Source of the DNA: Spirochaetes bacterium RIFOXYC1_FULL_54_7
GTDB lineage: Bacteria > Spirochaetota > Spirochaetia > Treponematales > UBA12059
Direction of reading: 5' to 3'
Length of the DNA stretch: 11,012 bases
NCBI GenBank assembly: GCA_001830645.1
Contig: MIBM01000119.1
Location: 1 to 11,012, forward strand
Positions 1 to 11,012 of the stretch are shown piece after piece (the stretch's first letter is position 1; every line of letters starts with the position of its first letter). The notes below the pieces were generated by a model. The model had not been told where the DNA came from, searched no databases, and saw only the letters and a program-made list of their open reading frames with translations. The translations under genes and the position numbers were made by a program.

Positions 1-103
1 CTGCTAGGATGGACAGCACCGGGACTGCAGCGGTCGGACAGGGGTTTTGTAAGTCCTGCCGCCGCGGCTGTAGAAGTGAAACTCTACGAGACCATTCTGG
101 GTT
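1..103. other. Short non-coding left edge, downstream of the hybrid kinase gene
   Basis: This stretch follows the TGA stop of the hybrid kinase gene in the direction of transcription. I see no convincing reading frame with a ribosome site on either strand. A weak 5-bp inverted repeat (GTAGA/TCTAC) lies near positions 70-90, but no T-run follows it, so I do not call a terminator. The operon may continue beyond the left edge. Confidence 0.4.
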
Positions 104-2008
104 TCAGCACTTACGGTCAAGAAGGGTACGTATCGCTCCTAGCAGATCCGATTCCCTGAATGGCTTTGCCAGTCGCAAATATCCTGAGTCAAGCTCCGAA
201 GCCTGCAGTTCACCGGCGTCTGCGGACAGCAGGAGAACAGGCAGGGATGGCAGGAAGACACGCAACCTTGTGGCCAGTTCCGGCCCGCGCATGAGGGGCA
301 TCAGGACATCGGTCACCAGGACATCCGGAACCTGCTCGGACCTCTCGGCCAGCAGGAGAGCCGTGCCTGGATTGTCCGCTGCTACTACTCGATAACCAGA
401 CCTATCCAGCATTGTTTCAATGATAGCCCGAACCGAATCATCATCCTCGACCAGCAAGACCCTTTCCCCCCGTCCTGATTTCTGGGCATGGGCCGGACTA
501 CTATCCTTGTCGATCGTGGTGGTTGATGAGCCGCCATCACCCTCCACCCAGGGCAGGTAGACTGTAAAGCGTGTTCCACTATGCAGGACTGTGTGCAGGG
601 CCAGATGGCCTTCCGCCTGCCTGACAATGCCAGCCACCGTAGACAGGCCCAGTCCGGTACCAACACCTGGGGGTTTGGTAGTGAAGAAAGGCTCGAAGAT
701 CCTGGGAATTATCCGGGGATCAATGCCATCACCCTCGTCTGCTATGGTGATATACGACCAGTGTCCAGGAGGGATGAGACCAAAGATACCGCGTTCCTCA
801 TGGGCCAGGACAATCGAGCCAGCCGAAATGGTGATACGGCCACCGCTGGGCATGGCATCCCTTGCATTGACCACAAGGTTGACAACCACCTGCTCCAGCT
901 TTGACCTATCCGCCCGGACTCCGCATGGCTCTTCGCCAAGGCGCTTCCGGATACCTACATCCTGGCCTATCAATCTCTCAATCATTCGTGAAAGTTCACG
1001 GACAAGATCAGTCAAGGAAAATACCGTCGGAACGGATGACTCACCCCGTGAAAAGACCAGAAGCTGTCTGGAAAGATTGGCCGCCCGTTTGGCCGCCTCT
1101 TCTATTCCGATCAGCTCCACTTTGTCTTCCATTTTGGCATTCTCGTCCATCCGGAGTAGTCGCGCATAGCCCATGATGGCTGTTATAATGTTGTTGAAAT
1201 CATGGGCAACCCCACCAGCCAAGCGTCCAAGGGCTTCCATCTTCTGCGACTGCGCAAGCTGGTCGGTCAGAGTCTTGCGTTCCGTCACGTCTATGGCATG
1301 ATACTGGTAGGCCGCCATGCCATCGTTGAGAGGGAAAGGAGCGGCGCTGATAAGCACCCACCGGGTACTACCGTCTTCCCGAGTAAAGGTTATCTCGGCC
1401 GGACCGGCAGACTGTCCTGCTGCCAGCGCCTGGTTGAAGGCATTCCGGACACCGGCATCGGTAAGGATATCGTCGATGTGCATAATGGAGCCTGCAAGCT
1501 GGCGGTAGGCATTGTTGCCCTGTACAAGAGATCCTTCTGGATCTACAAGGAAGATGGCAGCCAAAGCCTCGTCGAACAAAGCCCGGTACCGCTCCTCGCT
1601 TGAGCGCAACCGCTTCTCCATAGTCGACCGATACAGGCCTATGGCAATAGCCGTGCGGAGTTCCCGTTCATCATACGGTTTCAGGATGTAGGCATATGGG
1701 TGGGTCAGCTTGGCCCGCTCTATAGTCGGACCATCAGTATAGGCTGTCAGCAGGATTACAGGAACCGCCCAGCGCTTGAAAAGGATTGATGCAGCCTCCA
1801 CGCCGTCCATGGCTCCCTGAAGGTGTATGTCCATCAACACCAGGTCCGGCTGGTCATGCTCCACGCTTGCCAGAAGGTCTTCTGCGGCTACATACAGGCC
1901 GCATACTTCATAACCATTGCGTTGCAGGAAATTCTGGATATCGAGGGCTACTATCCTCTCGTCTTCACAAACTGCTATGCGCGGTTTGCGCCCTGGTTCA
2001 TCATCCAT
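104..2008 (-). CDS. Soluble hybrid sensor kinase: receiver-PAS-HisKA-HATPase-receiver
   Basis: This 634-residue cytoplasmic histidine kinase has no membrane segment or signal peptide. Residues 10-125 form a receiver with acidic pocket E15/D16, phospho-acceptor D60, T88 and K110. Residues about 137-245 are a PAS sensor domain ending in the usual DVTERK. The HisKA box has H269 in GGVAHDFNN. The ATP-binding domain has an N box (NLVVNARDAM, 377-386), G1 (DEGDGID), FEPFFTTK and G2 (GTGLGLSTV, 450-458). A second receiver fills 515-632 with E521/D522, D567, S595 and K615, all intact. A receiver at the N terminus usually lets another kinase control this one; the C-terminal receiver normally takes phosphate from H269. 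The ATG lies 6 bases after the preceding receiver gene with no strong ribosome site, which suggests translational coupling. The signal sensed by PAS cannot be read from sequence. Confidence 0.93.
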   Translation of the reverse strand: MDDEPGRKPRIAVCEDERIVALDIQNFLQRNGYEVCGLYVAAEDLLASVEHDQPDLVLMDIHLQGAMDGVEAASILFKRWAVPVILLTAYTDGPTIERAKLTHPYAYILKPYDERELRTAIAIGLYRSTMEKRLRSSEERYRALFDEALAAIFLVDPEGSLVQGNNAYRQLAGSIMHIDDILTDAGVRNAFNQALAAGQSAGPAEITFTREDGSTRWVLISAAPFPLNDGMAAYQYHAIDVTERKTLTDQLAQSQKMEALGRLAGGVAHDFNNIITAIMGYARLLRMDENAKMEDKVELIGIEEAAKRAANLSRQLLVFSRGESSVPTVFSLTDLVRELSRMIERLIGQDVGIRKRLGEEPCGVRADRSKLEQVVVNLVVNARDAMPSGGRITISAGSIVLAHEERGIFGLIPPGHWSYITIADEGDGIDPRIIPRIFEPFFTTKPPGVGTGLGLSTVAGIVRQAEGHLALHTVLHSGTRFTVYLPWVEGDGGSSTTTIDKDSSPAHAQKSGRGERVLLVEDDDSVRAIIETMLDRSGYRVVAADNPGTALLLAERSEQVPDVLVTDVLMPLMRGPELATRLRVFLPSLPVLLLSADAGELQASELDSGYLRLAKPFRESDLLGAIRTLLDRKC

Positions 2009-2014
2009 CGGAAG

Positions 2015-2431
2015 CTAGTTGTGGCGCTCGGCCGGCTTGATCCCGAACTTGGCCAGCTCCGATTTGATCTTCATACGATCTACCGGTTTTACGATATAGG
2101 TAGTCGCCCCGCCCTTGAAATATGCCTCGATGACGTTCTTGGGATCTTCCAGCACCGTGGTCATGACAACCCTTGTTTCGTTTATCGGAGACAGGCCGGA
2201 TTCTTTCTCAAAAGCCCTGATAAGCTTGAGAGCCTCCTGCCCATCCATCTTGGGCATCATGATACCAAGGAAAACCACATCATACGGAGCCCGCTCGGAC
2301 GTAGACATCTTGAAGGCGCTCACTGCCTCTTCTCCATCCACGACCACATCTACATGGCCATATTCCTCGAGAAGCTTCTGCATCATCCTGCGGCTTCCAA
2401 AATCATCCTCCACTACAAGTATCCTTGCCAT
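2015..2431 (-). CDS. Stand-alone CheY-like receiver lacking the phospho-acceptor Asp (Gly56)
   Basis: This 138-residue protein is a single receiver domain with no output domain. The acidic pocket (E8, D9, D10), the switch residues T91/T92 and the conserved lysine K115 in YIVKP are all present. The phospho-acceptor position, expected as FLDIMMP, reads FLGIMMP, so Asp56 is replaced by Gly (codon GGT at 2264-2266; Asp would be GAT). The protein should not be phosphorylated in the usual way and may act as a binding partner or decoy. The ATG is supported by GGAGG at 2438-2442, 6 bases upstream. It lies 16 bases after one receiver-kinase gene and 6 bases before another, so it is probably co-transcribed with both. 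One base change would restore Asp, so recent loss or a sequencing error remains possible. Confidence 0.92.
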   Translation of the reverse strand: MARILVVEDDFGSRRMMQKLLEEYGHVDVVVDGEEAVSAFKMSTSERAPYDVVFLGIMMPKMDGQEALKLIRAFEKESGLSPINETRVVMTTVLEDPKNVIEAYFKGGATTYIVKPVDRMKIKSELAKFGIKPAERHN

Positions 2432-2447
2432 ATCATGCCTCCACTCT

Positions 2448-4337
2448 TCAACTGCTTACGGTTTTGGCCAGACTTGTCAGTTCCTCAAGCCAATGTCCCG
2501 AGCCTCGGCGGGTATCCATCAGCAAGGCAAGCGCAAAACGCGCACAGGCCTGTGATCCAGACTCTGTAAAATAATCATAACTGTTTTTTGCAATCCTCTC
2601 GGCTTCGGCGGAATTCGCTGCCGAGGCAGCAGGCAGGAGTTGTGACAGAAGCCTGTCCAGCCCTTCGGCCATTCCGTTCTGCCTGGCCTCGGTCAGGGCA
2701 TCCTGTAACAAGCGCCGGTACGGCGAATCCTGGCTATCGTCTGCCTGACGGGTAGGTGGTAAACAATGGTTTTCAGGAACTGTTACCGTGCATTGTCCCC
2801 TCAAGCCTGGCTGATCCCCATGCCGGATATATGCCAGCCGGTCCATCAGACTGCACAAGGCCAGTGGATATGACATTCTGACCGGCTGTTCTGAAGAAGT
2901 ACCGTTCTGTGAAACAATGGCTATATCCAGTAAAGTCAGGCCAGACACCCCGCCACAAACAGCCTTTAAAAGATCCTGGTCTTCCTTCTTGCATCGATTC
3001 CAGTCGGCCACATCGGCAAACACCGCATCGCAGGCAAAGGCTGTTCCGTATTCTTTCATCCAGCCTGGCTTCAGCAGGTGGATTACGGCTCCGAAACGCT
3101 TGGTCCAACGTACTATTTCTTCGTAGGCAGCGCACTTTCCGAACACGCCTATGTTCATGCCTTGGATGACCTCATGGCCTTCCTGGAAGGCCGGTCTCGA
3201 ATCGAGGGGAAGCCCCATGGCCAACAAGAACTCGGACCCACCCTCTGCAGATTCCTGAAGGCCAAGACGCAGGTTCAGAAGATCGGCTATGCCCTTCACC
3301 AGAGCGAGGCCAAGGCCAAGGCCTCCTATCGCCCGGGTAGGCGAATCATCAACCTGTATGAAGCGATCGAAAATCCGCTGGCGTTTCTCGTCCGGAATTC
3401 CACGGCCGGAATCACTCACGCGTATTATCAATTCCATCGAATCCGCTCCGTCCCGGGTCAGCAGTACCCGTTCGGCGGACAGCAGCACATGGCCTGAATT
3501 GGTGAATTTCACCGCGTTGTCTACCAGGCTCTTGATGGCCGTTCCAAGCTTGGAGGCGTCAGAATGGATAACCGAAGGCAGATCAGGATCCAGGTAGAAT
3601 CGTGTTGACAAACCCTTGGCATGGGCCTCCATGGCAAAAGGTTCCCAGCAGCGCAGGAGGAAATCCTCAAGATCAAACTCCGAGTGGACGGGAATCAGGG
3701 CTCCGCTTTCCAGTTTTGTGTAGTCAAGTATACAGTTGATGATGGATTCAAGCTTGCGGGCACTCCGGGCTGCCAGCATTACATACTCCTTAAGCTCTAC
3801 ATCCTGGCCTATGGTAGCTGCCAGGTCGGTAAAACCGATGATGGCATTCAGCGGGGTCTTCAGTTCATGGCTGATGTTGGACAGGAAGCGGCTCTTGGCC
3901 CGGTCATTCTCCTCGGCTGTGGCCTTGGCCTCCAGTATTCCACATTCGTATTCAAACTTGGACAAGGCCAGCTCTATTGTTATCTTTAGTTCCCGCTCAT
4001 GATAAGGCTTGACTATGTAGCCGTAGGAACTCGAGGCCATGACCCTCTTGAGGATCTCGTCGTCGGTGAAAGCGGTAACGAAGATGATGGGTACTTCAAA
4101 GATTTCCCGGACATGGCCGGCAGCCTCGATACCATCCATCTCGCCTTTGAGTTTTATATCCATGAGCACGAGGTCTGGTCGGTGTTCATCTGCAAGCTGT
4201 ATGGCCACGGGACCGGTTACGGCAAGGCCGCAGACCTGGTAGCCGAAACCTTCCAGCCTGCAGCGCATATCCAGGGCTACGATGGTCTCGTCTTCTACGA
4301 TAAGTATCCTCAAGGCATCAGAGGGAGATTGTCTCAC
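2448..4337 (-). CDS. Soluble receiver-histidine kinase with degenerate C-terminal relay domains
   Basis: This 629-residue cytoplasmic kinase has no transmembrane segment. Residues 9-125 are a receiver with E15/D16, D60, T88 and K110 intact. A short helical linker leads to HisKA with H157 in SNISHELKTPLNAIIGF. The ATPase domain carries an N box (LVDNAVKFTNSG), G1 (SDSGRGIP, about 308-315) and G2 (GGLGLGLALV, 338-347). Residues about 394-505 look like a receiver fold that has lost its acidic pocket (VFGKC) and its lysine (MSYP in place of a KP motif); an Asp at 442 may remain at the acceptor position. Residues about 540-625 are helical and resemble HPt spacing but lack the histidine; this last reading is weak. 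Translation starts at GTG, overlapping the CheW stop in a GTGA, which implies coupling to CheW. A kinase joined this tightly to the che genes suggests a role in the chemosensory output, perhaps receiving phosphate from CheA at D60 (inference). Confidence 0.9.
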   Translation of the reverse strand: MRQSPSDALRILIVEDETIVALDMRCRLEGFGYQVCGLAVTGPVAIQLADEHRPDLVLMDIKLKGEMDGIEAAGHVREIFEVPIIFVTAFTDDEILKRVMASSSYGYIVKPYHERELKITIELALSKFEYECGILEAKATAEENDRAKSRFLSNISHELKTPLNAIIGFTDLAATIGQDVELKEYVMLAARSARKLESIINCILDYTKLESGALIPVHSEFDLEDFLLRCWEPFAMEAHAKGLSTRFYLDPDLPSVIHSDASKLGTAIKSLVDNAVKFTNSGHVLLSAERVLLTRDGADSMELIIRVSDSGRGIPDEKRQRIFDRFIQVDDSPTRAIGGLGLGLALVKGIADLLNLRLGLQESAEGGSEFLLAMGLPLDSRPAFQEGHEVIQGMNIGVFGKCAAYEEIVRWTKRFGAVIHLLKPGWMKEYGTAFACDAVFADVADWNRCKKEDQDLLKAVCGGVSGLTLLDIAIVSQNGTSSEQPVRMSYPLALCSLMDRLAYIRHGDQPGLRGQCTVTVPENHCLPPTRQADDSQDSPYRRLLQDALTEARQNGMAEGLDRLLSQLLPAASAANSAEAERIAKNSYDYFTESGSQACARFALALLMDTRRGSGHWLEELTSLAKTVSS

Positions 4338-4798
4338 GAGGCAACACCATCGGATGTAGCGGCAAACGCCGCATCCAGATCGAGGATGACCACAAAGCCA
4401 CCAGGGGTCTTGCCTATTCCCTGGATGAAGCGTGAATCCATCCGGCCCCCCAGTCTCGGGGGCGCTTCGATCATGGACTGCTCAAGGTCCATCACCTCAC
4501 GTACACCGTCCGCAAGCATGCCTATCGACAGGGCTTCACCGCTAAAATCAAGCTGCAACACAATGATGGCCGGATCAGCCTCCAGATCTACGGGAACTCC
4601 CTCCAGACGCAGGAGCGGATCAACGACAGGGATGACGCTGCCCCTGTGGTTGGTTACCCCACGGATAAACGGAAGGGCATTAGGTACCCTGGTAACCCTC
4701 TGCATCTCCAGAACCACCTCTACGCGGCCGACAGGAACGGCAAACAGTTCATCGGCCAGTACAAAAGTCAGATAGCGTCCGGAAATGGCTTCTGCCAT
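4334..4798 (-). CDS. cheW: CheW chemotaxis adaptor
   Basis: CheW is the SH3-like adaptor that links chemoreceptors to the P5 domain of CheA in the cytoplasmic arrays under the inner membrane. The 154-residue product is the usual size for a single-domain CheW. It starts with the typical strand YLTFVLADELFAVPV, continues with VEVVLEMQRVTRVPNALP, and contains the conserved core FIRGVTNHRGSVIPVVD at 44-60, a variant of the VNLRG turn. The second half (IIVLQL, GMLADGVREVMDL, FIQGIGK, GFVVILDLD) fits the family. The ATG is 5 bases after the CheY stop, with GGAG inside the end of cheY as ribosome site. Its own TGA overlaps the GTG of the next kinase. I see no receiver fusion as in CheV. Confidence 0.95.
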   Translation of the reverse strand: MAEAISGRYLTFVLADELFAVPVGRVEVVLEMQRVTRVPNALPFIRGVTNHRGSVIPVVDPLLRLEGVPVDLEADPAIIVLQLDFSGEALSIGMLADGVREVMDLEQSMIEAPPRLGGRMDSRFIQGIGKTPGGFVVILDLDAAFAATSDGVAS

Positions 4799-4803
4799 CG
4801 GAA

Positions 4804-5172
4804 TTACTCCGCGACTTTCTTGACTACTGCCAGAAGCTTGTCAGCACTGAAGGGTTTCACTATCCAGCCAGTGGCACCGGCTTCCTTGCCTTCGTTCATC
4901 TTGGTTCCCTGGGATTCGGTGGTAAGGACCAGGATAGGGACAAACTTGAATTTCGGATTCTCCCTGGCCTTGCGGATGAAGGTAATGCCATCCATGTTCG
5001 GCATGTTGACGTCGGTTATGATGCAATCGAAACGATCGGCAGAGTCCAGTTTCTGAAGGCCATCAAGTCCATCAATGGCCTCGACTGTCTCGTAGCCATC
5101 CTGCTGAAGGATATAGGTAATGCTCTGGCGTATTGCAGCTGAATCGTCAATAACAAGCAGTTTCTTGGCCAT
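4804..5172 (-). CDS. cheY: CheY response regulator, single receiver domain
   Basis: CheY takes phosphate from CheA and carries the signal to the flagellar motor or another target. The product is 122 residues, standard for CheY. It has the acidic pair D9/D10, phospho-acceptor D54 in IITDVNMPNMDG, T84/T85 and K106 in GWIVKPF. W103 sits where enterobacterial CheY has the switch tyrosine (Tyr106); GWIVKPF is common in other phyla. I chose the second of two adjacent ATGs (5172): AGGAGG at 5178-5183 is 5 bases upstream of it but only 2 bases from the first ATG at 5175. The frame stays open up to 5232, but that extension overlies the leader hairpin and adds residues with no counterpart in the family. 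The gene lies between cheB and cheW and looks fully functional. Confidence 0.94.
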   Translation of the reverse strand: MAKKLLVIDDSAAIRQSITYILQQDGYETVEAIDGLDGLQKLDSADRFDCIITDVNMPNMDGITFIRKARENPKFKFVPILVLTTESQGTKMNEGKEAGATGWIVKPFSADKLLAVVKKVAE

Positions 5173-5177
5173 CATGT

Positions 5178-5183
5178 CCTCCT
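5178..5183 (-). promoter_or_regulatory. Ribosome binding site that fixes the CheY start
   Basis: The minus strand reads AGGAGG, then five bases, then ATG (5172). This is the strongest Shine-Dalgarno match in the cluster. It supports the short CheY over a form starting at 5232. Confidence 0.8.
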
Positions 5184-5191
5184 GGTGTAAG

Positions 5192-5210
5192 GCCGCCCGA
5201 TAGCGGCGGC
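5192..5210 (-). other. GC-rich hairpin in the cheB-cheY gap
   Basis: On the minus strand a perfect 6-bp stem GCCGCC/GGCGGC encloses a 7-base loop (GCTATCG). It follows an AT-rich run containing TATATATAA (about 5211-5233) and ends 8 bases before the CheY ribosome site. No T-run follows, so it is not a typical terminator. It could mark an internal promoter leader, an RNA-processing barrier or control of CheY level; none of these is shown. Confidence 0.5.
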
Positions 5211-5234
5211 ATGTTATATATAATTTATTCACTA

Positions 5235-6305
5235 CTATTTGGCCGATCGCAGGACTTCGCCTGCAATCCGGTCCAGGGATATTACTGTATCCACTCCTCC
5301 GAGCTTGATTGCCTCGTTGGGCATACCGAAAACAATGCAGGAGGCCTCATCCTGGGCTATGGTCCTGGCTCCGGCATCATGCATTTCCTTCATGCCCCTG
5401 GCCCCGTCATCACCCATGCCCGTCATGATGACCCCGACGGTATTCTTCCCCGCATACCTGGCGGCAGAGCGGAACAGCACATCTACACTGGGTCTGTGCC
5501 TGCAGACCAGCGGCCCATCCTTGACCTCGACGTAGTACCTGGCGCCGCTCCGCTTGAGCAGGGTGTGGCGGTTGCCAGGAGCTATGAGCACCCTACCCCG
5601 TATAACCGTATCGTTGTCTTCAGCTTCCTTAACCGTTACCCTGCACAAGGTATCCAGTCTGCGTGCAAAAGCGGCCGTAAAATGCTCAGGCATGTGCTGC
5701 ACGACGACGATACCCGGTGTATCCTCTGGAAGGGCCTCCAGGAACTCGCGCAGGGCCTCTGTACCACCGGTAGACGCACCCACCACGATGATTTTCTCGG
5801 TTGTCTCTATTATGTTGCTGATTCCCGGTTTGGGCAACATGGCATCAGCTGTCAGCTTGGGGGCTACATCGCGTACCGGAGGAAGAGGTACCCGATGCCT
5901 GCCTTTGGACATATAGGCTGCCTTTACAACATCACAGATTGAAACGCGTGATTCCTCGAGGAATTGCTTGGTGCCAAGCTTTGGTTTCTGTATGATCTCG
6001 ACCGCACCATACTCCATGGCCTTTATTGCGTTGTCGGAACCGCTTTCGGTCTTGCTGGAACAGATGACCACCGGTATGGGCTTGGTTTCCATTATCTTGC
6101 GCAGGAAGGACAAGCCGTCCATTCTTGGCATCTCTACATCCGATACTATGACATCCGGCGTCACGGTCTCCATCTTCTTCAGTGCAAAAAGTGGGTCTGC
6201 CGCTACGGCTATCACCTCTATCTGAGGATCCGAATCCAGGAGATCTTTTAGGGTCTGTCGCACCACCGCCGAATCATCGACGATCATTACCTTGATGTTA
6301 GCCAT
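5235..6305 (-). CDS. cheB: CheB protein-glutamate methylesterase/deamidase
   Basis: CheB removes methyl groups from, and deamidates, glutamyl sites on chemoreceptors, giving adaptation once CheA phosphorylates its receiver. The 356-residue product has the standard two-domain form. The receiver (1-125) has D10/D11, D56 in [14 protein letters not shown]83/S84 and K107 in IIQKPK. A linker of about 40 residues leads to the methylesterase domain. There, S178 (GASTGG), H204 (VVQHMP) and D300 (MTGMGDDGA) match the Ser-His-Asp catalytic triad. The ATG has AGGA 5 to 6 bases upstream, in a 12-base gap after cheR. The frame ends TAG and is followed at once by TAG and TGA in the same frame, so termination is secure. 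Pairing with cheR next door is the classical arrangement. Confidence 0.97.
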
Positions 6306-6317
6306 ATATATCCTAGA

Positions 6318-7169
6318 CTATAAGCGCTCATATACGGTCGGTGCAAGGCTGCGGAGGGGCAGGGACATACCAGTAAGGGTTTCGGAATGGCCCAGGATCA
6401 GGTTGCCTCCTGGTCGTAGATACCCGCACATATGGCCCAGCAAACGTTCCTGGGTAGGACGGTCAAAATAGATGATTACATTGCGGCAGAAGATGACATC
6501 GAACTTGCCATCAAAAGGAAAGTGGTCATCCATGAAATTAAGCCGGATGAATTCCACCTTGTCACGCAACTCCTTCTTGATCCTTACATCAACCTTGGAA
6601 GGATCCTTGCTGCGCAACAGGTACTTGCGTTTGAAACCCGGAGGAACGGGTATTACTTTTTCAGCATCGTATACCGCCATAAAGGCCTTCTGCAAAGCCT
6701 GTGAAGATATATCCGAAGCCAGTATGTGATAATCGAAGCCTGGATAGGTGCTTCTGAACTCTTCCAGCACCATGGCCAGTGTATAGGGCTCCTCTCCGGT
6801 GGCACAACCGGCAGACCAGAATGAAAAGAGGCTACGCCCTGGATTACGTGTCATGGCAGCGGGCAGCAGACGGTTGGACAGTATGTCGAAATGATCGGGT
6901 TCCCTGAAGAAATCGGTCTTGTTGGTGGTCACGGCATCGATCATGTGGATCATTTCAACATCGTCACCAGAAAACACACGGTCTATGTAGGTTTCAAAAT
7001 CGGGCAAGCCAAGGACACGCAAGCGCTTCTGCAGACGGCTTTCAAGCATAATACGTTTGGTATCCGGCATCCGTATGCCCAGTTCGGATTCTATGAAAGC
7101 CGAGAGGCGCCGGAATCCCCTCTCGGAGATACCGCTTCTGACCGAGCCTGTAGATTCCTGTGAGGTCAT
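6318..7169 (-). CDS. cheR: CheR chemoreceptor glutamate methyltransferase
   Basis: CheR transfers methyl groups from S-adenosylmethionine to glutamates on chemoreceptors, working against CheB. The 283-residue product has the usual length. A helical N-terminal domain (about 14-90) ends in TTNKTDFFRE. The SAM-binding domain has SAGCATGEEPYTLAM (119-133), the acidic ASDIS at 151-155, NFMD (211-214) and DVIFCRNVIIYFD (224-236). GHSE at 260-263 closes the fold. The ATG overlaps the CheA stop as ATGA, and GAGG lies 5 bases upstream inside cheA, so the two genes are translationally coupled. No TPR or other C-terminal extension is present. I see no missing catalytic motif. Confidence 0.97.
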   Translation of the reverse strand: MTSQESTGSVRSGISERGFRRLSAFIESELGIRMPDTKRIMLESRLQKRLRVLGLPDFETYIDRVFSGDDVEMIHMIDAVTTNKTDFFREPDHFDILSNRLLPAAMTRNPGRSLFSFWSAGCATGEEPYTLAMVLEEFRSTYPGFDYHILASDISSQALQKAFMAVYDAEKVIPVPPGFKRKYLLRSKDPSKVDVRIKKELRDKVEFIRLNFMDDHFPFDGKFDVIFCRNVIIYFDRPTQERLLGHMCGYLRPGGNLILGHSETLTGMSLPLRSLAPTVYERL

Positions 7170-9403
7170 GCGGACCTCGCCTGCGCGGCCCGCGCCGAGT
7201 GGGCAAGGCGGTTGAAATCGATGATGAGGGCTACTGTACCATCTCCGAGAATGGTTGCCCCGGAAATGCCGGATACATCCTTGAACATGCGGCCCAGAGG
7301 CTTGATCACTGTCTGGTAGTCACCTATCACCGCATCTACCACAAAGCCTATCTTGTGTTCCTGGGAATTGACCACCACAACCTGCCTGAATCCAGGCACT
7401 GTGCCCTGGATGGCAAAGGCATCCCTCAGTTCTACATAGGGTAGGAGATCGCCGCGGTAACTCAGCAGTCTGGATCCATTGCTGGTTTGGCCGGCATCAT
7501 CGGGTAGCTCTATGCAGGCCTCCACCGATGACAGGGGCAACACGAAATGTTCATCGGCGATGCGCACCAGAAGGCCCTCTATGATGGCCAGAGTCAACGG
7601 AATCTGCAGTGAGATGGTTGATCCCACTCCGGCGCTTGTTTCAACTGAAACAGTACCGCCCAGGGAATCAATTTCACGTTTGACCACATCCATCCCAACG
7701 CCCCTGCCCGAGACGCTGGTAACGCTGACAGCGGTGCTGAAACCGGCCCTGAATATAAGCAGACCGGCATCTGCATCGGAAAGGATTTCGCCCGGGGCAA
7801 TCAGTCCACGTTCAGTGGCCTTGCGCCTGATGGCATCCATGTCCAGCCCCTTGCCGTCATCCGATACCTGTATGACCACATGGGCACCGGAATGTGATGC
7901 TTTCAGGCACACCGTACCTTTGGGAGGCTTCCCGGCAGCCCTACGGTCATCGGGAGATTCCACGCCGTGATCAAGGGAATTGCGTATGATATGCACCAGG
8001 GGATCGTTCAGACGCTCGATCACCGTCTTGTCCAGCTCGGTCTCCGCACCTTCGGTAAGCAGTTCGACATCCTTGCCGAGCTCAGATGAAAGATCACGTA
8101 CCACCCTACGGAACTTGTTGAAGGTTGAACCAATAGGCAGCATCCGGACGCTCATGGCGTTGTCGCGCAGCTGGGACACCAGACGTTCCAGTTGCTCGGC
8201 TATGCCCGACAAGGTTGTATCACCCAGGGTCGAGGTGCTGCTGGTCAGGCGGGCCTGCAGGGTTACCATCTCTCCTACCAGATCAACCAGCTGATCCAGT
8301 TTTACACTCGCTACCCGCACCGACATGGCGCCGGTATCATGCTGGTGTTCCTGGGCATGCTTGATGTGGGCCTGTTCGGCCAGGACTGATTCCAGGTCGC
8401 TGGGCTTGAGGAGCTTGTTCTCCAGAAGCACCTCGCCGAGCCTCTTCTGGGATTTCAAGGCTTCACCAAGGTCTTCGGGGCGTACAAGACCACGCTCCAG
8501 AAGCATCTCACCTACCCGCTTCTGCCTGCCACCATCCTCATCCGGTATATCCAGATGCTCGATGACTACCCGGGAGGCACCTTCAACGAAGATGAACACA
8601 TCGCGGATGGCATTGATACCGGAAGATGTTGTCAGGACGGCATTCCAGGAAACATAACAGCGCTCGGGATCAAGTAAGTCCATGGGAGGTATGGCTTCCA
8701 CCGCCGGCACGACACTAAGGGTGCCAAGTTCTGCCAGCTCTTCGATCAGCTTGAGTACCTTGGTCCCGTTCATGAAGATTTCAGGAGCAGGTTCAAACAC
8801 TATGCGGTAGGTTTCATCCGTCCCTGCTTTGAATCCTGGTTTGTCGGCCCCGGTTTGAGTTGCCTCTGGCTGCATGGTAGCAGTTCTTCCAGTATCGGCA
8901 CCTGAAGAGCCATGGCCTGAACCGGCTGAAAGGCTGGTAGCTCCAACCGTACCAGAACCAGCTTTCACAGAACCAGCTTTCACAGACCCGGCTTTCCCGG
9001 ACCCGGGTGGGGGGCTCAGCTGCGAGCCGTCTTCCACAGCTGCCCGGAATTCTGCCATAAGGGCCTGGGCTTCTTCATCAAAGGGAGCGGAACTGTCAGC
9101 CTCGGCCAGCATCGCGCGTATCTTGTCCCTGGCACGCAGGGAAAGGTCTATGACCCTGCTGTCCACGGCACGAAGGCCACTGCGACAGGCATCCAGGAGG
9201 TTTTCAAGGTCGTGGGTGAACCGGCCGGCCTTCTCGAAGCCGAACATCCCCGCCGAACCCTTGATGGTATGGACAGCCCTGAAAGCAGCGTTTATGAGTT
9301 CGACGTCGTCGGGGCGCGTTTCAAGCTCCAGAAGTACATCTTCAAGCTGTGAAAGGAGTTCTTCGGCCTCTTCCCTGAAGGTTTCACGGAATTTGTCTAT
9401 CAT
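7166..9403 (-). CDS. cheA: CheA chemotaxis histidine kinase with MshEN-like insert
   Basis: CheA autophosphorylates and passes phosphate to CheY and CheB under receptor control. The 745-residue product has these parts in order: P1 HPt with H45 in AVHTIKGSAGMFGF; a low-complexity linker (about 125-195) with KAGSV repeats; a P2-like domain (about 197-287, YRIVFEPAPEIFMNG...); two tandem RLG...Q motifs (296-344); P3 dimerisation helices (about 361-425); P4 ATPase with N box HIIRNSLDHGVE (471-482), G1 DDGKGL (515-520) and G2 SGRGVGMDVV (565-574); and the P5 CheW-like domain (604-740). All key catalytic residues are present. The P2-like type is the one I associate with alpha- and deltaproteobacterial CheA rather than the E. 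coli P2. The ATG overlaps the STAS stop as ATGA, with GGAGG 6 bases upstream. The tandem motif insert is the odd part and is listed separately. Confidence 0.97.
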   Translation of the reverse strand: MIDKFRETFREEAEELLSQLEDVLLELETRPDDVELINAAFRAVHTIKGSAGMFGFEKAGRFTHDLENLLDACRSGLRAVDSRVIDLSLRARDKIRAMLAEADSSAPFDEEAQALMAEFRAAVEDGSQLSPPPGSGKAGSVKAGSVKAGSGTVGATSLSAGSGHGSSGADTGRTATMQPEATQTGADKPGFKAGTDETYRIVFEPAPEIFMNGTKVLKLIEELAELGTLSVVPAVEAIPPMDLLDPERCYVSWNAVLTTSSGINAIRDVFIFVEGASRVVIEHLDIPDEDGGRQKRVGEMLLERGLVRPEDLGEALKSQKRLGEVLLENKLLKPSDLESVLAEQAHIKHAQEHQHDTGAMSVRVASVKLDQLVDLVGEMVTLQARLTSSTSTLGDTTLSGIAEQLERLVSQLRDNAMSVRMLPIGSTFNKFRRVVRDLSSELGKDVELLTEGAETELDKTVIERLNDPLVHIIRNSLDHGVESPDDRRAAGKPPKGTVCLKASHSGAHVVIQVSDDGKGLDMDAIRRKATERGLIAPGEILSDADAGLLIFRAGFSTAVSVTSVSGRGVGMDVVKREIDSLGGTVSVETSAGVGSTISLQIPLTLAIIEGLLVRIADEHFVLPLSSVEACIELPDDAGQTSNGSRLLSYRGDLLPYVELRDAFAIQGTVPGFRQVVVVNSQEHKIGFVVDAVIGDYQTVIKPLGRMFKDVSGISGATILGDGTVALIIDFNRLAHSARAAQARSA
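8372..8518 (-). other. Tandem MshEN-like (GspE N-terminal-like) motifs inside CheA
   Basis: This stretch encodes CheA residues 296-344. It holds two 24-residue units, starting RVGEMLLERGL and RLGEVLLENKL and each ending in Q, with one Lys between them. As I recall it, the published MshEN consensus for c-di-GMP binding is RLGxx[LVI][LVI]xxG[LVI][LVI]xxxxLxxxLxxQ. Unit 1 matches at every position except Leu2, which is Val. Unit 2 matches except that Gly10 is Lys. The usual spacer is about 5 residues; here it is 1. The family resemblance is clear; ligand binding is unproven. Confidence 0.65.
8956..9000 (-). repeat. 15-bp tandem repeat in the CheA linker
   Basis: Two perfect copies of AACCAGCTTTCACAG (plus-strand reading; 8956-8970 and 8971-8985) are followed by one diverged copy (8986-9000, 3 mismatches). 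The unit length is a multiple of three, so copies add the five-residue unit KAGSV/KAGSG and keep frame. They fall in the flexible linker between P1 and P2. Such repeats change copy number easily and would alter linker length only. Confidence 0.85.
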
Positions 9404-9744
9404 GAACGACCTCCGGGAGCACCGAAGCCAGGCAGCCTGGATTGGAGTACCTGGCCGTCCCTGACAAGGCTCTTGGAAAAACCGGTTACCAGAAGGCGGG
9501 CGGCAACAGACTCCTGGACAGGACCGGCAAAGCTTGCCTCACCACCTGCAGCCACAGCTGACTGGGCAGCAGCATACAATAACTGTATAGCTGGGAGTTC
9601 CAGTTCTACAACCGCACTCAGGTCAAACTCTATCCTGTTCGAATTGGCCAAGGCATCGCGGATACGTCTGGCAAGATCCGTTACACCATCAATGCCGGAG
9701 ATTTTTTCAAGTTGTATTCGCTGCACAATATTTTTAGAAGCCAC
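9400..9744 (-). CDS. STAS-domain protein encoded just upstream of CheA
   Basis: This 114-residue protein is one STAS domain. The pattern RIEFDLSAVVELELPAIQLL (38-57), followed by a helix and then GGEASFAGP, fits the STAS beta-alpha order. In anti-sigma antagonists such as SpoIIAA the equivalent stretch reads roughly DSSGL and its Ser is phosphorylated; here it reads ELPAI (49-53), so the acceptor is absent. It begins with GTG, backed by GGAGG at 9750-9754 five bases upstream, and its stop overlaps the CheA start as ATGA. That coupling points to a partner of CheA. STAS-like genes occur beside cheA in other bacteria; rhizobial CheS, which binds CheA and aids loss of phosphate from CheY1, is a possible analogue. 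Its function here is not established. Confidence 0.85.
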   Translation of the reverse strand: MASKNIVQRIQLEKISGIDGVTDLARRIRDALANSNRIEFDLSAVVELELPAIQLLYAAAQSAVAAGGEASFAGPVQESVAARLLVTGFSKSLVRDGQVLQSRLPGFGAPGGRS

Positions 9745-9749
9745 CTATA

Positions 9750-9754
9750 CCTCC
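9750..9754 (-). promoter_or_regulatory. Ribosome binding site for the GTG start of the STAS gene
   Basis: The minus strand reads GGAGG, then TATAG, then GTG (9744). This spacing decides the start, because the gene has no nearby ATG. Confidence 0.75.
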
Positions 9755-9771
9755 GATAGACCGGGGACCGA

Positions 9772-9787
9772 CCGCCCGGCGGGGCGG
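9772..9787 (-). other. GC-rich leader hairpin ahead of the STAS-cheA operon
   Basis: A perfect 6-bp stem (CCGCCC/GGGCGG) encloses a 4-base loop. It lies between the predicted promoter and the STAS ribosome site, about 20 bases before the latter. With no T-run it is unlikely to be a strong intrinsic terminator. It may stabilise the leader or affect translation. Confidence 0.5.
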
Positions 9788-9805
9788 ATCCAGGCGCACG
9801 TTGAC

Positions 9806-9834
9806 AGTCTAATCCGGCGCATCGCACTTGGCAA
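9806..9834 (-). promoter_or_regulatory. Candidate sigma70-type promoter of the che operon
   Basis: On the minus strand TTGCCA (9829-9834; 5 of 6 bases match TTGACA) is followed after exactly 17 bases by TAGACT (9806-9811; 4 of 6 match TATAAT). It sits in the only sizeable intergenic gap upstream of the chemotaxis genes and would give a leader of roughly 55 bases. I found no flagellar sigma28-type element here. It rests on sequence matching alone. Confidence 0.5.
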
Positions 9835-9857
9835 GGCTGATTGCGACCATGAATCCA

Positions 9858-11012
9858 TCAGAAAACCCCGGGACTGTTGTCAATATTTATATCAAACAAG
9901 CCATCTCCATCGAGATCCCAGCTCTTCCTGAATGGGGCTACCAGGGATTCCCGGTATTCGTAGATTCCGTCACCATCAAGATCGGTTTCCATGAAGGATG
10001 GATATGGCTGGCCGACCGCATCCCTAAGCCAGTGGCGCCTGGCCTCGAAAACGCCGTCACCGTTCAGATCAAGATGCTCATCCACTGGCAAACCGTCGCG
10101 GTAGAGAGCCCTGCCTTGCTGGCCGTATTGATCCTGCCACCATGATCGCTGTGGAATGCCGTCCATGGCCAGCAGGGACTCGCGGCCCGCAGGAGAGAGC
10201 CTTTCGATACGGTAGGAATTCATCACAAGTGAGTTGCGGCTTGGCAGACCAAGACCGGAAGACGTGAAGCCCCAGATTGATCCTAAACCACCCCGGACTA
10301 GATCGTGGAACCGGACAAGAGGCAGGGGCATGACAGTGGAACCAAAATGGTAACGCTCCGACGAGCTTCCATCATGCAATTCAACCGTATCGGCATACGG
10401 CCAGGCTACATAATGTACTTCCATCCAGGTAGATTCCGCTTCCAGTTTGATGATGTCGGGTACACCATCAGAGAAATCAACCAGCATTTCAGGCCTGCCA
10501 TCCTGATTGTCATCCACACTCATCGAGGCCGGAAAGCCGGACTCATATCTGATCATGATTTCGTGGCTACCATCATCATTGCTATCCAGAACCATGATCC
10601 CATTGAAGCTCCTGAAGGCAGCTATAAGACTTTCCAAGGCTTCCCTTCCGGAAAACAGTCCAGCCAAGGCTACAAGGTCCGGCCATTCAAGCAAAGCGGG
10701 GCCATTGTCCAGCTTTGTGGTCAGGAGCTCATCCATGGCACGGTACTCGTCAACCAGGCCAAGGCGAAGCGCCTGGATGGCACTGTAACCAGGACTACCG
10801 CCCATGGCCCGGTATTCACGTACCAGGAACCGGGCATCTTCAAGACTAGGGGCATAGGGAGCAAGCAGGATATCAAGCCGATGGTCACGTTCAGCAAGGG
10901 TCGGACGCAGTTCGAACAGGCGCGCCAGAAGCCCGGTGTTCCCAGGGCTGCGCTCAAGTGGCTCGCGGCGGCTCAGCCACCGGACAACCGGGCGCGGATC
11001 ATCAGGAAAACG
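9858..11012 (-). CDS. C-terminal part of a protein with repeated DxDxDG Ca2+-type loops (partial)
   Basis: The frame is open to the right edge (384 residues visible), so the true start lies outside; the ATG at 10805 is internal. The upstream part is helix-rich, around FELRPTLAERDHRLDILLAP, and might hold TPR-like repeats, but I cannot define units. Five acidic loops of the EF-hand or dockerin-loop type follow: DSNDDG (about 10569-10586), DDNQDG (10497-10514), DLNGDG (10053-10070), DLDGDG (9966-9983) and DLDGDG (9900-9917). Most are followed by a short hydrophobic/charged strand such as IYEYRE, which suggests a repeated fold with metal-binding turns. Spirochaete genomes carry proteins of this general look, often exported, but whether this one has a signal peptide cannot be seen. 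Its stop is 113 bases before the STAS gene, with a promoter between, so it is probably a separate unit. I do not know its function. Confidence 0.85.
   Translation of the reverse strand, partial: RFPDDPRPVVRWLSRREPLERSPGNTGLLARLFELRPTLAERDHRLDILLAPYAPSLEDARFLVREYRAMGGSPGYSAIQALRLGLVDEYRAMDELLTTKLDNGPALLEWPDLVALAGLFSGREALESLIAAFRSFNGIMVLDSNDDGSHEIMIRYESGFPASMSVDDNQDGRPEMLVDFSDGVPDIIKLEAESTWMEVHYVAWPYADTVELHDGSSSERYHFGSTVMPLPLVRFHDLVRGGLGSIWGFTSSGLGLPSRNSLVMNSYRIERLSPAGRESLLAMDGIPQRSWWQDQYGQQGRALYRDGLPVDEHLDLNGDGVFEARRHWLRDAVGQPYPSFMETDLDGDGIYEYRESLVAPFRKSWDLDGDGLFDINIDNSPGVF

Follow-up and report, generated by a model that had tools for sequence, protein, structure and literature searches.

A compact MshEN-type domain in a spirochaete CheA and its possible role in c-di-GMP sensing

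Can the histidine kinase of a chemotaxis system read a second messenger by itself? The question is raised by the cheA gene of Spirochaetes bacterium RIFOXYC1_FULL_54_7 (contig MIBM01000119.1, positions 1 to 11,012; these 11,012 nucleotides are the window), whose product carries, between its P2-like domain and the dimerisation domain P3, a segment of 49 residues that resembles MshEN, a domain that binds cyclic di-GMP (c-di-GMP). On the strength of its sequence and of its predicted structure, this CheA somewhat more probably does than does not sense c-di-GMP through the compact MshEN-type domain, which would act on the kinase. If this is true, a kinase that reads c-di-GMP itself joins the decision between sessile and motile life to chemotaxis at the central enzyme. 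The published routes of the messenger into chemotaxis run through adaptors and receptors, for example MapZ, which acts on CheR1 (PMC12564702), and the PilZ chemoreceptor Cbp1. A single purified domain is enough to test the idea, since the compact form is short, recurs in many proteins and is easy to express.

The fusion of the two domains is already known, as the first-pass annotation of the window had suspected, since Wang et al. (2016; PMC5013675) state in one sentence that MshEN is found fused with CheA and CheX, among others. In the open-access literature searched, which did not cover the supplementary fusion list of that paper, nothing was found on the compact spacing, nor any functional study of a CheA that binds c-di-GMP.

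Motifs, profile matches and predicted fold

The published consensus of the MshEN motif is RLGxx(L/V/I)(L/V/I)xxG(L/V/I)(L/V/I)xxxxLxxxLxxQ (Wang et al., 2016), and two consecutive 24-residue motifs of this kind are present in the insert (residues 296–319 and 321–344). The translation bears out the initial reading that they are near-perfect copies, whose sole deviations are Val for Leu2 in motif I and Lys for Gly10 in motif II. At the positions that contact the ligand according to the same paper (R1, L2, G3, L17, L21 and Q24 of both motifs), 11 of the 12 residues are identical and the remaining one is the Leu to Val change. The canonical domain has a spacer of five residues and a total of 53; because the CheA insert has a spacer of one residue and a total of 49, it is named here a compact MshEN-type variant and not a canonical MshEN. 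The C-terminal alpha/beta subdomain of MshEN is also missing: in the full-length model the last bundle helix (334–357) ends eight residues before the first helix of P3 (from 366).

The NCBIfam profile NF053729 (c-di-GMP_motif) matches residues 296–344 with 44.2 bits (E 1.2e-11) in the full protein, over a cut-off of 38 bits, and the 70-residue segment alone with 49.7 bits; since the score lies above the cut-off, the pair of motifs is more than chance. In the host genome, which is 72.6% complete, this CheA is the only match. The Pfam MshEN family PF05157 (90 positions) gave no match in the CheA protein, the isolated segment or the host genome, and it was dropped as a membership test for the insert. 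The same divergence holds among the 57 members of a CheA alignment (A4), of which PF05157 matches none at E<=0.01 and NF053729 all at E<=0.001, and therefore counts of MshEN based on Pfam can miss the CheA form. Among solved sequences, the closest to the segment is PilF of type IV pili (E 2.3e-9), followed by PilB (E 0.0023) and MshE (E 0.0029). DUF4388 also matches the segment, below its cut-off, and two non-CheA proteins of the survey described below (P0019 and P0020) combine Pfam MshEN, T2SSE and DUF4388 with several copies of the motif.

AlphaFold2 predicts the segment as a four-helix bundle, whose best match in the PDB is MshE with c-di-GMP (5htl, root-mean-square deviation 1.1 Å); the second-best is the GSPII-B domain of PilF (8pdk and related entries), and the non-binder GSPII-A ranks lower. 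The predicted fold contains the helix pairs whose absence the first-pass annotation had named as refuting, and, because the model of the bundle matches 5htl best, the one-residue spacer leaves the predicted fold intact. A continuous alpha2-alpha3 helix, incompatible with an MshEN bundle, was rejected, as the models of the segment and of the full-length protein both break at the spacer. The prediction for residues 296–344 is thus a compact bundle of four helices, with the P2-like domain (197–284, from the model) on one side and P3 (361–419, from Pfam) on the other, which agrees with the place, next to the dimerisation domain, first assigned to it.

With MshEN of Vibrio cholerae MshE (5htl) the insert shares the two 24-residue motifs, the ligand-contact residues and the predicted bundle, and it differs from it in the spacer, the missing subdomain, the Lys at position 10 of motif II and the host of the domain, a kinase here and a pilus ATPase there. 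GSPII-B of Thermus thermophilus PilF is published to bind c-di-GMP with a dissociation constant (KD) of 6 nM while carrying Lys and Leu at position 1, so that either residue is compatible with binding; unlike the CheA insert, it has a five-residue spacer (counted from Q190 and L196) and the C-terminal subdomain, and it belongs to a pilus ATPase. A related segment that is likewise not part of a pilus ATPase occurs in the NfrB-type glycosyltransferases activated by c-di-GMP (NCBIfam NF008411), which match residues 285–351 weakly, far under the family cut-off (23.3 against 1170 bits), and whose output domain is unrelated.

By analogy with MshE, one molecule of c-di-GMP would lie within one subunit, enclosed by its two helix pairs: R296 and R321 would stack on the guanines, the Leu/Val clusters would lie below them, and Q319 and Q344 would contact the ribose-phosphate backbone. 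The bundle ends so close to the first P3 helix that binding would be expected to stiffen the P2–P3 junction and could alter the access of P1 to the kinase core. The cellular level of c-di-GMP would in this way set the activity of the window CheA, one of three proteins with a P3 match in the host genome (the others are G000:C58 and G000:C276, or L081 and L083); as for the direction of the effect, a lower kinase output at high c-di-GMP is our guess.

Spread and spacer length among CheA relatives

The segments of the window CheA, P0013 and P0024 were used as queries and yielded 13, 12 and 93 proteins, respectively. The motif survey examined a set of 148 proteins, open reading frames (ORFs) of the collected loci included, and gave 148 hit rows; since similarity to the insert decided what was collected, the counts below do not give frequencies for CheA proteins at large. 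No motif hit was obtained in five proteins (L004–L008), which are relatives without the insert, and 17 rows that did not match the CheA pattern were set aside (among them the non-CheA P0019 and P0020, and what are probably CheA fragments). Exactly 49 residues are found in 116 of the 131 CheA hit rows, from which 104 distinct compact inserts derive, and 15 rows differ; five of these are 48 residues long, four of which look one terminal residue short, whereas L046 lacks a residue inside motif II.

A single 49-residue match is present in 108 of the 116 proteins P0001–P0116, and the one-residue-spacer form also occurs in L001–L003. No other form is as frequent in the collected CheA proteins that have an insert, and this, together with its compatibility with the predicted bundle, weakens the objection raised in the first-pass annotation that the spacer is 1 residue instead of about 5, correct as the observation was. 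Among the named sources of insert-bearing CheA are Desulfovibrio sp. A2, Desulfovibrio oxamicus, Solidesulfovibrio, Desulfatiferula, Geomonas and a gammaproteobacterial metagenome-assembled genome; the one-residue spacer is seen in named Desulfovibrio, Geomonas and Desulfatiferula records, and these CheA proteins of other bacteria have the insert at the same site, between a P2-like domain and P3. Within the phylum, 66 of 198 genomes have a match to insert plus P3 at E<=1e-10, spacer lengths having been read for the fetched loci only.

The one-residue spacer is not a rule for all CheA proteins, an idea that was rejected because other lengths occur. Read by eye, the spacer has two residues in L057, L058, L059 and L071, three in P0115, four in L069, five in P0116, L060, L061, L062, L064, L065, L068, L070 and L072, and more than five in L063. 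L055–L059 and L071 missed the CheA pattern, stand outside the counts and the tree, and were read separately in the same manner; L055 and L056 have one-residue spacers, L056 being rather degenerate, and position 1 of motif II is Pro in L057 and L071. Five of the proteins with a five-residue spacer, from other genomes of the same phylum (L061, L064, L065, L068 and L070), carry an MshEN-type insert at the same place as the window CheA and differ from it in their canonical spacing and in belonging mostly to a separate branch of the kinase-core tree. In this tree, a quick search on 64 of 101 CheA cores after thinning, with long branches for L006, L004 and L063, two changes suffice for the 54 compact rows and two for the 8 rows with longer spacers, where shuffled labels need 9.5 and 7.7. 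For the most part, then, the spacer class goes with the kinase lineage, although close kinship alone makes the labels cluster.

It may be, although this wider claim is put forward tentatively and with some doubt, that a widespread class of CheA proteins (in spirochaetes and in the Desulfovibrio-, Geomonas- and Desulfatiferula-type records) act as direct receptors of c-di-GMP via the 49-residue MshEN variant, so that the messenger would set CheA activity without an adaptor.

Ligand binding and its alternatives

The change of Gly10 to Lys in motif II is real, and the concern that it may block the site has lost weight, given that Gly10 is a turn residue rather than a ligand contact according to Wang et al. 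(2016). Among the 104 distinct compact inserts this position is Gly in 72, Lys in 23 and another residue in 9; among 16 sequences compared it is Lys in 15 and Asn in one (L002), and the change was accordingly rejected as a sign of decay of this gene alone. Two further points favour binding: an engineered, isolated four-helix subdomain is published to bind c-di-GMP, and the host genome has 19 GGDEF and 7 PilZ matches.

Several observations weigh against binding, and they lend some credit to the explanation that the insert is a non-binding domain with a structural role, which is possible but on balance rather unlikely. In motif I, another residue stands in place of Gln24 in 34 of the 104 distinct compact inserts. 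High conservation among these inserts extends beyond the ligand motif (Glu I.4 in 94%, Arg I.9 in 96%, Glu II.23 in 98%, Ser II.19 and Ala II.20 in 88% each), which suggests a contact surface specific to CheA, and Arg I.9, Ser II.19, Ala II.20 and Glu II.23 point to protein as the partner; ordinary MshEN was represented in the comparison by 10 sequences only. Furthermore, MshEN domains that do not bind the ligand are documented (PMC5013675 among the sources). On the other hand, no class of positions within the compact domain is better conserved than the ligand contacts, the strict contact pattern (R1, L/I/V2, G3, L17, L21 and Q24) is present in both motifs in 13 of the 104 distinct compact inserts, those of P0001–P0012 and L002, though not in the other 91, and the predicted fold is closer to ligand-bound MshE and PilF than to the non-binder GSPII-A.

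The pocket could also hold another nucleotide, such as 3',3'-cyclic GMP-AMP (cGAMP), or another small ligand, given that V. cholerae MshEN is reported to bind cGAMP as well, if weakly (KD 3.3e-4 M; PMC5013675), and that the short spacer could reshape the pocket; the many GGDEF matches in the genome, where no search was aimed at other nucleotide cyclases, make this very improbable. Smaller still is the chance that the spacer, four residues shorter than in MshE, forces the motifs to swap between subunits so that c-di-GMP bridges the CheA dimer. Such an arrangement would suit a domain that directly precedes the dimerisation domain, but neither monomer model shows a single long helix, each having four helices and breaking at the spacer, and the model of the segment can be superposed on the MshE bundle, which is formed by one chain. 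Sensing of c-di-GMP within one subunit is the reading preferred here.

The cheA gene and its neighbours

The features of the locus are listed in Table 1. The domains P1, P3, P4 and P5 of CheA all lie above their Pfam cut-offs (4/4), and the Pfam scan of the protein gave no match to P2. As expected for a chemotaxis CheA, the neighbours of the gene include cheR, cheB, a cheY-like gene and cheW; beyond cheW, downstream, Pfam identifies a receiver-HisKA-ATPase kinase, then a receiver, and then a second kinase, which contains PAS and receivers.

Table 1. Features of the cheA locus, in window positions
Feature	Position	Strand	Basis
cheA, 745-residue chemotaxis histidine kinase	7166..9403	-	stop codon included; Pfam Hpt, H-kinase_dim, HATPase_c, CheW above cut-off
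P1 (Hpt), residues 5–103	9095..9391	-	PF01627, E 3.1e-19
P2-like alpha/beta domain, residues 197–284	8552..8815	-	secondary structure and predicted local distance difference test (pLDDT), full-length model
Predicted compact MshEN-type domain, residues 296–344 (49 residues)	8372..8518	-	NF053729; model best match 5htl
Motif I, residues 296–319, RVGEMLLERGLVRPEDLGEALKSQ	8447..8518	-	translation against published consensus
One-residue spacer, Lys320	8444..8446	-	translation
Motif II, residues 321–344, RLGEVLLENKLLKPSDLESVLAEQ	8372..8443	-	translation against published consensus
P3 dimerisation domain, residues 361–419	8147..8323	-	PF02895, E 3e-10
P4 ATPase domain, residues 467–604	7592..8005	-	PF02518
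P5 CheW-like domain, residues 609–737	7193..7579	-	PF01584
STAS-domain protein gene, directly upstream of cheA, 4-base overlap with cheA	9400..9744	-	PF13466 above cut-off; ORF
cheR	6318..7169	-	PF01739, PF03705
cheB	5235..6305	-	PF01339, PF00072
cheY-like single-domain receiver	4804..5232	-	PF00072
cheW	4334..4798	-	PF01584

The nearest loci in the genome collection are L001–L003 (titled Spirochaetales, Spirochaetes and Spirochaetae), with a best segment identity of 61–63%. Their translated ORFs, read by eye, show the order cheA-cheR-cheB in all three and a STAS-like ORF before cheA in L001 and L002.

The linker between P1 and P2 of the window CheA, modelled with low confidence, holds a short repeat, KAGSVKAGSVKAGSG (residues 137–151, window 8951–8995), which is absent from the other 115 proteins, P0002–P0116. 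An ORF at window 9858–11012, open at the end of the contig, has no Pfam family at E 0.01 and contains repeated stretches of the D-x-D-G-D-G type; similar-looking ORFs lie upstream of cheA in L001 and L003.
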